From Rhodospirillaceae bacterium (lineage in GTDB: Bacteria > Pseudomonadota > Alphaproteobacteria > SMXQ01), in the NCBI GenBank assembly GCA_947474495.1, contig CANJIM010000017.1, positions 1 through 46,429 of the forward strand: a stretch of DNA of 46,429 nt, in the 5' to 3' direction. Below the pieces are notes generated by a model. The model was not told where the DNA came from. It was given only the letters and a program-made list of their open reading frames with translations, and ran no database searches. The position numbers and the translations under genes are program-made. Below are positions 38,460 through 45,063 of the stretch, in pieces. The number at the start of each line of letters is the position of its first letter. Position 1 is the first letter of the stretch.

Positions 38460-40118
38460 TCACGCCAAATTGTAGCCGTCGATAATCTTGACGGGCTTGG
38501 CCAAGGGCAACGTCAGGGTAAAGCGCGAGCCGCGGCTGGGGGAGCTTTCCACCGTCAAATCGCCGCCCATGAGCTGAGCCAGATGGCGCGAGACGCTGAG
38601 GCCAAGGCCTGTGCCTTCGGGACGCTGGCTCATGACGTCGGCCTTGACCTGATAGAAGCGCTCGAAGACCCGATCCAGCTCGGCGTCCGGAATGCCGATA
38701 CCGGTATCCCATACGGTGATGGCGAGACGGCCGTCGGCATATTCGCGGGTGTCGATGCCGATCGAGCCGCCGTCGGGGGTGAATTTGACAGCATTGTTCA
38801 GCAGATTGACGGGAATCTGCCTAGTGCGCAGCCGGTCGGCGAGAATCGTCCAATGATCGGCGATGTCGACGGCGTCGATATTCAGGCACTTTTCTGCTGC
38901 GCGCATGGCGATTAAGGCTTTCGCTTCCGACATCAATTCACGGGCACGCACTGGCGCGACACTAATCGTTAGGGTCTGCGTCTCGATGTTTGCCGTGTCG
39001 AGAATATCGCTGATGATGGCGAGCAGGTGTCCGCCGGCTTTGTGAATGTCGCTGAAGTAATCGACGTAAGGATCGCTCAGCGGTCCAAGCACACGCTGAA
39101 TGGCGGCGTCGGAAAATCCGATGATGGCGTTGAGTGGCGTGCGCAGCTCATGGCTCATCATGGCGAGAAATTCGATCTTGGCGCGTTCGGCGGCGCGCGC
39201 GTCCTCCAGAGCGAGATCGAGTTGCGCGTTGCGCGCCGTCAGTGATTGCATCGCCTTGGCGAGCTCGGCTGAGGTTTGACGCTCAGCATTTTCTGCGATC
39301 TGCTGGCGCGTCACGTCCGTACCCGTGCCGCGGTAGCCGAGAAATTTTCCGCTGGCGTCATCGAACACCGGTACGCCACTGAGGTGGATCGAGCGCAATA
39401 AGCCTTTTTCATCCGGCATGACAAATAGCGCCTGGCGGAACGGCAAGTGACGCTGCAGCAACTCCTTCGGCGCCTCATGATCGACGGCGGCGAATTGACC
39501 GAGGCTTATCAGGTGGCGGCCTTTCAAAGCGTACGGCGGCAGGCCAATTGTCTCCGCGATCCGCGCCGATACGAAGGTGAGATTGAGATTGCCGTCAGTC
39601 GCCCAGATCTAATCAGAGGCGGAGCGCACGACATCCTGGAGCTACGTTTCCATCTGGCCGGCACGTTGCGCCGCCTGATTGAGCGGTGTCACATCCGTGA
39701 AGCTGCCGCCGAAGCCAACAATTTCACCAGTTGCGTCCTGCAAGGGAAAGTGGCGGCCGACGAACGTCCGGTTAGCGCCCCCGATATCGATGGTTTCCTG
39801 GGTTTCGATCGGCCGGCGCGCGAGATAGAGCCGTTCGATAATGCGCATCAGGGCGACGGGAGTTTCATCAATTGCCTGCGCTTCGGCAGGCAATTCAAAC
39901 AGAGCGCGGGCGATTTGCGCGAACGCAGGATTGGCATAGACGATATTGCCAGCGGCGTCAGCGGCGTCAGTGGCGTATGCTGGCGATAGGCGTTAGCAGA
40001 GTCCGCGCAATAGGTCGCTCTGCGGATCATTGCCGATCTGGCCGATGGCGATATGAGGCGGTGGCGGCTCGGACGGGGGGAGCGGAATGGAGGCCGCGCC
40101 TGGCGTCTTCTTACCCAT
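38460..40118 (-). pseudogene. PAS-PAS histidine kinase with three in-frame stops
   Basis: One frame of 553 codons from ATG 40118 to TGA 38460 is broken by TAA 39995-39993, TAG 39644-39642 and TAG 39611-39609, without any frameshift. The pieces read as a coherent kinase. The first PAS domain has ATDAAGNIVYANPAFAQI. The second starts LQDVVRSASD, where a stop sits at the position usually Trp, then IWATDGNLNLTFVSARI. A HisKA with FLAMMSHELRTPLNAIIGF and an HATPase with NLLNNAVKFTPDGG, DTGIGI and GTGLGLSVSRHL follow. If translated from ATG 39527, only the second half of the second PAS plus the catalytic core would be made. Confidence 0.8.
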
Positions 40119-40196
40119 GGATTTCGACTTAGGCGGGGTCATGCAAGGCCCCGTGCCGTTCGCCGCAAATGCCGATGTAATGCGCAGTGACCGTTA

Positions 40197-40432: not shown

Positions 40433-40621
40433 TTAGCTGATGTCATCAAGACGCATGGGCACAAGGTTAATAACGGCGGCGTTGATCAGCTGTTTGCCGA
40501 CGTTCTCGAAATTAACGGTAATGCGCATGCCGATAGCCGATTGAATCTGGCCTATTCCCCATTCCGGATGATCGGGGTGGCGGACGTAGGTTCCAGGGGT
40601 GAGATCGGCGGCATTGGACAT
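40433..40621 (-). CDS. DUF3553 protein
   Basis: A 62-residue protein with the DUF3553 pattern: TPGTYVRHPDHPEWGIGQIQ, then RITVNFENVGKQ. This small beta-rich domain resembles the SH3-like module that follows UvrD-type helicases and often stands beside chpT in Rhodospirillales, divergently as here. Its function is unknown. Complete and apparently intact, unlike its neighbour chpT. Confidence 0.72.
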   Translation of the reverse strand: MSNAADLTPGTYVRHPDHPEWGIGQIQSAIGMRITVNFENVGKQLINAAVINLVPMRLDDIS

Positions 40622-40797: not shown

Positions 40798-41448
40798 ATG
40801 GATCAGCGTATTGAACCCCGGCTGTTCGAACTGCTCAATGCCCGGCTGTGCCACAATCTCATCAGCCCTGTCAGTGCCATCAACAATGGCATTGAGCTGA
40901 TCTTAGAACTTGCAGACGATCCTGGCGGTGAGGCATTGGGATTGGTCGCCACGAGCGCCAAGGAAACGGCGCGCCAATTGCAATTTTTCCGCTTGGCCTT
41001 TGGCTCAGTCCGTTTGCCCTCTGGCGCCGATGCCGGATTGGCTTAAGCGCGGGCCGCCATGCTGGATTGGCCCTTTGGCGATCGGATCGCTGTTGTATGG
41101 CCGGAGGGGGGGGCTTCTCTCCCCATCCCGCGCATCGGCGCTAAATTGATGCTGCTGTTGGGTTTGGTCGCGCTTGATTGCTTGGGCGGCGCCGGGCAGC
41201 TCATCTTCTCGTCGCAGGCGACAGCCGATGGATTGTTGTGGAGATCGAAGGCGATGGGAGAGCGGGCAGCCCTGGCGGCTGATATGGCCGCGGCGTTATC
41301 CGGGCAGGCGGGGGTGGGGGATTTGAGCGCGAAAACGGCGCCGGCTGCTTATGCCATGGTGCTGGCGGAGGGCTTGGGCGCACGGATATCGAGCATGGCG
41401 GCGCCCGAGATGATCAGGCAGGAGTGCCTGATCCCGGCGACAAGCTAA
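40798..41448 (+). pseudogene. chpT: histidine phosphotransferase ChpT interrupted by in-frame TAA
   Basis: The frame from ATG 40798 encodes the ChpT dimerisation/HPt part (FELLNARLCHNLISPVSAIN, with the phospho-accepting His in RLCHNLISP). It stops at TAA 41044-41046 (codon 83). The same frame continues as ARAAMLDWPFGDRIAVVWP and then DLSAKTAPAAYAMVLAEGLG, the degenerate ATPase-like C-terminal half of ChpT. It ends at TAA 41446. So the only break is one nonsense codon. ChpT passes phosphate from CckA to CtrA and is essential in many alphaproteobacteria, so truncation would be a strong phenotype. The first 82 residues keep the helical hairpin that bears the His. Confidence 0.8.
41412..41433. 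other. perfect hairpin with GGAG loop at the chpT 3' end
   Basis: GATCAGGCA / TGCCTGATC (9 bp) closes on the tetraloop GGAG. It is inside the last codons of chpT and 30 bases from the ctrA stop on the other strand. No T-run follows on either strand. A GGA in a hairpin loop is the CsrA-binding pattern, and csrA is encoded 2 kb away, but this is inference. Confidence 0.4.
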
Positions 41449-41462
41449 AAACTGCTGAACGC

Positions 41463-42188
41463 TTAGACGGGGGCGACCACGCTGTCCGTGCCCGTGGCGA
41501 GGTGCGGATCTTCATTGGGATCGCGCAGCACGTAACCACGGCCCCAAACGGTCTCGATGTAGTTGTCGCCGCTCGTCGCGGTGGCCAATTTCTTGCGCAG
41601 CTTGCAAATGAAGACGTCGATGATCTTCAGCTTAGGCTCGTCCATGCCGGCATAGAGATGGTTGAGGAACATCTCCTTGGCCAGTGTCGTGCCCTTGCGT
41701 AGCGAGAGAAGCTCAAGGATGCCGTATTCCTTGCCGGTCAGATGAAGCGGCTGATTGTCCACTTCGACCGTACGGGCGTCGAGATTGACGACGAGGCGGC
41801 CAGTACGGATGACCGATTCGCAATGGCCCTTGGAGCGGCGGATAATGGCGTGGATGCGGGCGATCAACTCGCCTTTGTCGAACGGCTTGGTCAGATAATC
41901 GTCGGCGCCGAAGCCGAGGCCTTTAATCTTTTTGTCGGGTTCGGTGAGGCCGGACATAATCAACACCGGGGTGTTGATGCGAGCGGCGCGCAAGCGGCGC
42001 AGGACTTCATAGCCGTCGATATCCGGCAGCATGAGATCAAGGAGCATGAGATCGTAATCGTACAGCTTGCCGATCTCGAGGCCATCTTCGCCAATATCTG
42101 TGTAATCAACGACGAAACCTTCCGACTTCAGCATCAATTCGATGCTCTTCGCCGTGGCGCTATCGTCCTCAATCAGCAAAACACGCAT
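41463..42188 (-). CDS. ctrA: cell-cycle response regulator CtrA
   Basis: OmpR-type master regulator of alphaproteobacterial cell cycle and motility, 241 residues. The receiver has the acidic pair EDD (7-9), phospho-acceptor Asp51 ([14 protein letters not shown]) and Lys101 (YLTKPFDKG). The C-terminal winged helix includes [12 protein letters not shown] and [11 protein letters not shown]. Its sequence is intact and typical, in contrast to chpT and cckA here. ATG 42188 follows GGGGATCC. It is divergent from dksA and convergent with chpT. Confidence 0.95.
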
Positions 42189-43514: not shown

Positions 43515-43773
43515 TGGTTCTCCTTCGCCATCCTGGCGCCCGTGGCGTTTCGCCCACCTGGCCATCCTTGCTGGGGTAGGGGAAGGGTCCCCCGGGGCCG
43601 TGCGGAGATTAGCCTCCTTTACTCTATTTTAACAGTGGCCCTGCATTATTTGCCCATCGCCGCCCCGGTCGGCCCCTTTCAGGCAAAGGCCGGGCCAAGC
43701 GGCAGCTGCTGCAGCCGAAGGCTTCACCTGGGTTTTAAACGATGGATTTAATAAAATTCCGCTGTTCTCGGCC

Positions 43774-45063
43774 ATGAGCCGGCGCATGACCTGGCTCGGT
43801 CAGCGCCAGGAATTGCTCGCCCAGAACATCGCCAACGCCGACACGCCAGGCTACACGGCGCAAGATCTCAAGCCGCAGAATTTCAGCGACGTGCTCAAGA
43901 GCAAGATGGGCGCGTCGCTGCAGATGGCTTCCACGTCCGGCGGCCATCTCGGCGGCGTCGCGCATGACTTCAACAACCTGCTCACCGTCATGATCGGCTT
44001 TTGCGATCTCTTGCTGCTGCGCCACCGGCCCCGCGAGCAGACTTTCGCCGACATCATGCAGATCAAGCAGAACGCCAATCGCGCGGCGAACTTGGTGCGC
44101 CAGCTGCTTGCCTTCTCGCGCCAGCAGACCCTGCAGCCGAAAATTCTCGACGTCACCGACATCCTCGCCGAGCTGTCGAACCTGCTGCGCCGCCTGATCG
44201 GTGTGAACATCCAGCTCAAGGTGGTGCATGGCCGCGACCTCGGCCTGGTGCGCGTCGACCAGGGCCAGTTCGAGCAGGTCATCATCAACCTGGTGGTCAA
44301 CGCGCGCGACGCCATGGCGAGTGGGGGCACGCTGACCATTCGCACCGCCAACGTCATGCTCGATCACGAGATCCAGCGCGGCGTCGAGATCATGCCGGCG
44401 GGCGACTATGTGCAGGTCGAGGTCATCGACACCGGCACCGGCATTCCGGCCGAGAACCTGGAGCGCATCTTCGAGCCGTTCTTCTCGACCAAGGAAGTCG
44501 GCTCCGGCACCGGCCTCGGCCTCTCCACCGTCTACGGCATCGTCAAGCAGACCGGCGGATTCGTCATGGTCGACAGCGTGATGGGGCAGGGCTCTACCTT
44601 CAGCATCTATCTGCCGCGCCATCACGCCACCGCCGCCGAGCGCGTCGTCAGCCATGACGACGAGGCCAATGCCGGCGCGGCGCGCGACCTCACCGGCGTC
44701 GGCACCGTGCTGCTGGTCGAGGACGAAGACGCCGTGCGCCTGTTCGGCGCCCGCGCCCTGCGCAACAAGGGCTACAAAGTGCTCGAGGCCAGGAACGGCG
44801 AGCATGCGCTGGAAGTCATCGCCGCGGCGTCGGAGCCGGTCGATCTCGTCATCACCGACGTCGTCATGCCGGTGCTCGACGGCCCGGAACTGGTGCGCCG
44901 CGTGCGCGAGGCCAATCCCGAGATGAAGGTGATCTTCATCTCCGGCTACGCCGAGGACAACCTGCGCGAGAAGCTGGCGGAAAGCGCCAACGTGCATTTC
45001 CTGCCCAAGCCCTTCAGCCTGCAGCAGCTCGCCGGCAAGGTGAAGGAAGTGCTGGCGGGGTGA
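43774..45063 (+). CDS. FlgB-CckA fusion: flagellar rod N-terminus joined to kinase core and receiver
   Basis: A 429-residue open frame. Residues 1-58 are the N-terminus of the flagellar basal-body rod protein FlgB ([20 protein letters not shown], 16-35). From residue 62 it is the CckA catalytic core: HisKA with [20 protein letters not shown] (phospho-acceptor His64), HATPase with [17 protein letters not shown] and [12 protein letters not shown], and a receiver with Asp362 in [12 protein letters not shown]. The CckA sensor part and the rest of FlgB are missing. The join is at about 43939-43956, where FlgB-like GGHLGG and the CckA-type GQLAGG sequence resemble each other. The true FlgB start ATG 43742 is one base out of frame (A4 tract at 43753-43756), so ATG 43774 is the in-frame start. 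It may be a soluble CckA remnant or an assembly join. Confidence 0.85.

Follow-up and report, generated by a model that had tools for sequence, protein, structure and literature searches.

ChpT and CtrA signalling is essential in Caulobacter. The oldest role of the CckA–ChpT–CtrA pathway is thought to be motility (PMC8116508). Members of the relay are missing to varying degrees in the Rhodospirillales, where the occurrence of CckA without CtrA was left unexplained (Brilli et al. 2010; PMC2877005), and chpT, cckA and divL were each present in only 27–36% of the Rhodospirillales genomes of a later survey (PMC8116508). Here we describe a chpT gene with an internal stop codon in a window of 46,429 nucleotides, which is the complete contig C17 of a Rhodospirillaceae assembly (G000, 96% complete). 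Our reading, to which we assign a probability of about 0.88 on one assembly of the species, is that this chpT became a pseudogene recently and that its interruption is among several fresh lesions through which the lineage is discarding CckA–ChpT–CtrA together with the flagellum. The features of the chpT region are as follows.

40433 to 40621, minus strand: DUF3553 gene, intact, a conserved chpT neighbour across the family
40798 to 41448, plus strand: chpT pseudogene, 217 codons including both stops (PF10090, family ChpT profile, congener alignment)
40855 to 40857, plus strand: AAT, encoding Asn20 where Asp is otherwise conserved, directly after the phospho-acceptor His19 at 40852–40854 (alignment)
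41044 to 41046, plus strand: in-frame TAA at codon 83, where the congener has GAA (Glu) (alignment to G001)
41047 to 41445, plus strand: ChpT C-terminal domain 3′ of the stop, still open (PF10090)
41463 to 42188, minus strand: ctrA, open reading frame intact

In the chpT frame, 82 codons precede the TAA at 41044–41046 and 133 follow it, up to the terminal TAA at 41446–41448. A profile of four intact ChpT proteins of the family, which itself matches the solved ChpT chains 4qpj, 4fmt and 4fpp, matched the whole frame (positions 1–217 of 218, E = 1.7e-80) with one TAA inside it. The part after the stop matched Pfam HPTransfase (PF10090, E = 7e-14), the C-terminal degenerate ATPase-like domain; because of the TAA at codon 83, the two ChpT domains do not lie in one uninterrupted frame. 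A search for close relatives with the ChpT profile returned only G001, the sole congener in the comparison (record CAMAVH010000009.1), in which chpT is intact and occupies the same gene neighbourhood. The alignment of the two genes is 216 codons long and gap-free, with 215 sense pairs and the TAA opposite GAA, and the proteins are 71–72% identical overall and 84% identical in the N-terminal half. The PF10090 match, the family profile and the gap-free alignment together confirm the preliminary description of the gene as chpT with one in-frame TAA and no frameshift. That description had guessed Gln or Glu as the ancestral residue, and Glu is most likely, because G001 has GAA at this position of the gap-free alignment. 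It had also called for a check for a second chpT, and a profile search of the G000 assembly found none. The C-terminal ChpT half was searched for in the named genomes without a match, and the first ATG 3′ of the chpT stop has no evident ribosome-binding site in front of it.

The N-terminal hairpin with its phospho-acceptor His is present in G000, and His19 aligns with that of all relatives. In Caulobacter ChpT the hairpin spans residues 20–83 and the linker residues 84–91 (PMC3433190). With an offset of 14 relative to that protein, the G000 stop falls near residue 97, just past the hairpin and linker, and on these limits the first 82 codons, already said to keep the His-bearing hairpin, span the whole of it. 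A second lesion was overlooked at that stage: G000 alone has Asn directly behind the phospho-His, where all of the other ChpT proteins have Asp (22/22; 23 copies in total). The 22 comparison copies had been chosen via the C-terminal domain and are therefore unbiased at this site. Among the positions that are invariant across the congener and three outgroups, G000 differs only at the stop and at D20N, and no faster rate of amino acid change was found in G000 chpT. Since D20N is the only other change at fixed sites, the break in chpT is taken to be recent, too young to have left a difference in rate.

A second interrupted gene, a two-PAS histidine kinase, sits close to chpT, between moaA and the DUF3553 gene.

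38463 to 40142, minus strand: two-PAS histidine kinase pseudogene (sensor kinase beside chpT), 87% identical to the intact G001 gene, with three stops
39609 to 39611, minus strand: TAG in the PAS kinase, TGG in G001 (alignment to G001)
39642 to 39644, minus strand: TAG in the PAS kinase, TGG in G001 (alignment to G001)
39993 to 39995, minus strand: TAA in the PAS kinase, GAA in G001 (alignment to G001)

All three nonsense codons lie within the N-terminal sensor part of the kinase; the kinase core is open and there is no frameshift. The cckA gene of the same genome is also damaged, as a fusion to flgB.

43741 to 43752, plus strand: native flgB start region, with one T fewer than G001
43774 to 45063, plus strand: FlgB::CckA fusion relic, FlgB residues followed by CckA DHp-CA-REC
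43945 to 43962, plus strand: flgB/cckA joint region around the repeat CGGCGGCGT(C)

G000 has just one close CckA homologue, and it begins as FlgB, with 62 residues that are 90% identical to G001 FlgB. Its CckA part has CckA NF046020 as the best NCBIfam match (E = 1.8e-170, profile positions 467–867 of 868), although the match stays under the cut-off for the whole protein, since the first half is absent. The N-terminal membrane and PAS sensor half is absent, with FlgB residues standing in its place, and the joint also takes the first turns of the CckA phospho-acceptor helix. The remaining core keeps its catalytic motifs and contains no stop, which again would indicate recent decay. In G001 the gene order is flgB, flgC, fliE, fliQ, fliR, flhB, cckA, with cckA ending at the contig end (the names between flgB and cckA were read off translations, not taken from a profile search), and G002 has the same spacing from flgB to a full cckA. 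Because the joint falls at a repeat common to the congener flgB and the cckA of relatives, the simplest origin of the fusion would be a deletion of about 4.6–4.7 kb between short repeats. Loss of the single T puts the native flgB ATG out of frame with the fusion, so that translation could start solely at an internal ATG, which has no evident ribosome-binding site.

Besides the FlgB stub, no rod or hook gene was found in G000, and FlhA and FliG were not found either; G001 retains FlhA, FliG and the rod and hook genes missing from G000. Among the 11 family genomes, FlhA and FliG are present in G001 and G002 alone, and chpT is intact in both. However, chpT is also intact in G007 and G008, in which neither FlhA nor FliG was found. 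The coupling between flagellum and relay is loose, because these two genomes keep the relay where neither flagellar protein was found, and 11 related genomes are too few for statistical support.

Similar damage was seen elsewhere in the family. G005, which belongs to another genus, has a separate chpT pseudogene, stops in the PAS kinase (two TGA), a FlgB::CckA remnant (L107:10890-11513, G005:C2) and an open ctrA, as in G000, but it has decayed further. Its chpT is frameshifted near codon 16 and the C-terminal half is unrecognisable, while CckA is reduced to REC with the phospho-acceptor Asp replaced. In CtrA of G005, one residue of the acidic pair near the N-terminus is gone, as is the Pro after the phospho-acceptor loop. 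Because G008, the sister of G005, retains all three relay genes, the G000 and G005 scars are judged to be independent. In G004, chpT and ctrA have been lost between DUF3553 and dksA within one contig, and CckA is represented by part of REC only. On this evidence G005 and G004 each lost the signalling chain separately. In four further genomes (G003, G006, G009 and G010; L100, L101, L104 and L105), ChpT, a close CtrA orthologue, FlhA and FliG were not found; these genomes have a full-length CckA with flgB/flgC upstream. Several of their contigs end near the expected chpT/ctrA site, and the absence of chpT and ctrA there is therefore not counted as loss. The essentiality ascribed to ChpT in the preliminary description does not transfer to this family, given the chpT pseudogene in G005, its deletion in G004 and the frequent incompleteness of the relay in the Rhodospirillales.

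A shortened but working relay would be another way to read these genes. The 82-residue product could act as a minimal phosphotransferase in which two hairpins dimerise and pass phosphate between CckA and CtrA. The fragment spans the full hairpin and linker (PMC3433190), its half of the protein is 84% identical to the congener and the CckA core motifs are kept. Yet the Asp beside the phospho-His has been lost in the G000 copy alone, the CckA fusion has neither its sensor half nor an in-frame native start, and the equivalent hairpin remnant in G005 is frameshifted. We therefore consider a functional fragment very unlikely. The earlier suggestion that a short fragment may work was structurally fair, but function is improbable given D20N, the state of cckA, the broken kinase and the lost flagellum. 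With these gene lesions, transfer of phosphate from CckA through ChpT to CtrA is unlikely in G000.

The extent of decay was sampled by comparing 0.85 Mb of G000 with 1.48 Mb of G001, and an omega filter gave 105 pairs, each a G001 gene whose full-length G000 counterpart is clearly constrained at the protein level. Before filtering, the 58 of 167 reading frames scored as ‘disrupted’ were mostly wrong-strand frames and over-long starts. Among the roughly 105 pairs, stops well inside the frame occurred in chpT and the neighbouring kinase only, and in the remaining flagged pairs the stops lay close to the 5′ end, the pattern that over-long ORF starts would give. Genome-wide decay was rejected, as no comparable breaks were present in the sampled orthologue pairs. 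Because the pairs sampled elsewhere show no such decay, breakage appears to be concentrated in one neighbourhood and, counting cckA, in one pathway. One more gene, in L216:18644-20000 (G000:C1), matched a 457-aa frame of G001 with a possible frameshift near codon 144, at about 19.6 kb.

This distribution also bears on whether the stop arose through misassembly or wrong base calling, or entered the consensus from a minor strain. A single base separates the TAA from the congener codon and there is little other damage in the rest of chpT, as an error would predict. An error at 41044 is nevertheless improbable because three nonsense codons lie next door and cckA is cut by a deletion. The four nonsense codons of chpT and the adjacent kinase, D20N, the cckA/flgB deletion and the 1-bp loss all agree with one another, and the sampled genes elsewhere are free of such breaks. 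The TAA in chpT looks genuine, and we give an artefact or a minor allele little chance.

Both the CckA core and ctrA have kept open frames, which counts against decay of the pathway. CtrA of G000 has both its receiver and its DNA-binding domain (NCBIfam NF045991, 416 bits against a cut-off of 350) and is 95% identical to the G001 protein, with a dN/dS of ~0.05. Of the CtrA sites that are invariant across three outgroups, five are changed in G000 (L36I, L82M, S127C, T174A and G184A) and one in G001; this excess points to a possible loosening of constraint in G000 but is not significant (P = 0.22).

Decay of the whole pathway would account for these observations as follows. Motility may have been lost or become useless, which would have removed selection on the relay. 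With the flagellar operon directly upstream of cckA, the deletion that cleared the flagellar genes could also have taken the sensor half of cckA, and chpT and the nearby kinase would then have picked up their stops. While the lesions themselves are visible in the DNA, we infer their order and cause. A CckA unable to feed ChpT, and a ChpT unable to feed CtrA, would leave CtrA as an orphan regulator. Judged from the sequence, the relay in G000 is probably no longer working. The chpT stop had initially been thought to change CtrA control; it is better read as part of a discarded pathway than as altered control in a living one.

Retention on purpose of a relay without sensors, in which the soluble CckA core made at the flgB::cckA scar, the core of the neighbouring kinase and a hairpin-only ChpT drive or drain CtrA in a non-motile cell, seems to us most improbable. 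That the stops are read through or recoded to make whole proteins is the least probable reading. In its favour, missense changes at conserved sites are few beside the stops (two nonsense and two missense at invariant columns), but this count is small and comes from genes picked for holding stops. Each of TAA, TAG and TGA terminates intact genes of the window and the in-frame stops replace different residues (grounds on which stop-codon reassignment was also rejected), and read-through could not mend the cckA deletion.

If the pathway is decaying as proposed, G000 is shedding the relay one gene at a time together with its flagellum while the sister lineage keeps both, and this provides a natural test of the idea that motility came first, as well as of the role of CtrA without its relay. 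The locus also suggests a simple route to the loss of cckA: in this family the gene immediately follows flagellar genes, and a single deletion can remove it with them.

Compared with the phosphorelay of Caulobacter, Brucella and the Rhodobacterales, G000 has the orthologous chpT, a cckA core and ctrA, and in its family chpT adjoins ctrA. Unlike in those systems, its chpT is interrupted and carries D20N, its cckA is without the sensor half and the flagellum is gone. G000 also resembles the incomplete CtrA relays of the Rhodospirillales and Rickettsiales, in which members are missing to varying degrees and chpT and cckA are often not found (PMC2877005, PMC8116508). Those surveys record presence and absence, whereas in G000 the genes can still be identified as pseudogenes of recent origin, and a sister lineage has them intact. 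The literature comparison group is the Rhodospirillales, and the G000 family may lie outside that order. Loss of the relay is already known in the Rhodospirillales; what is new is that it has been caught half-way, with a flgB::cckA scar.
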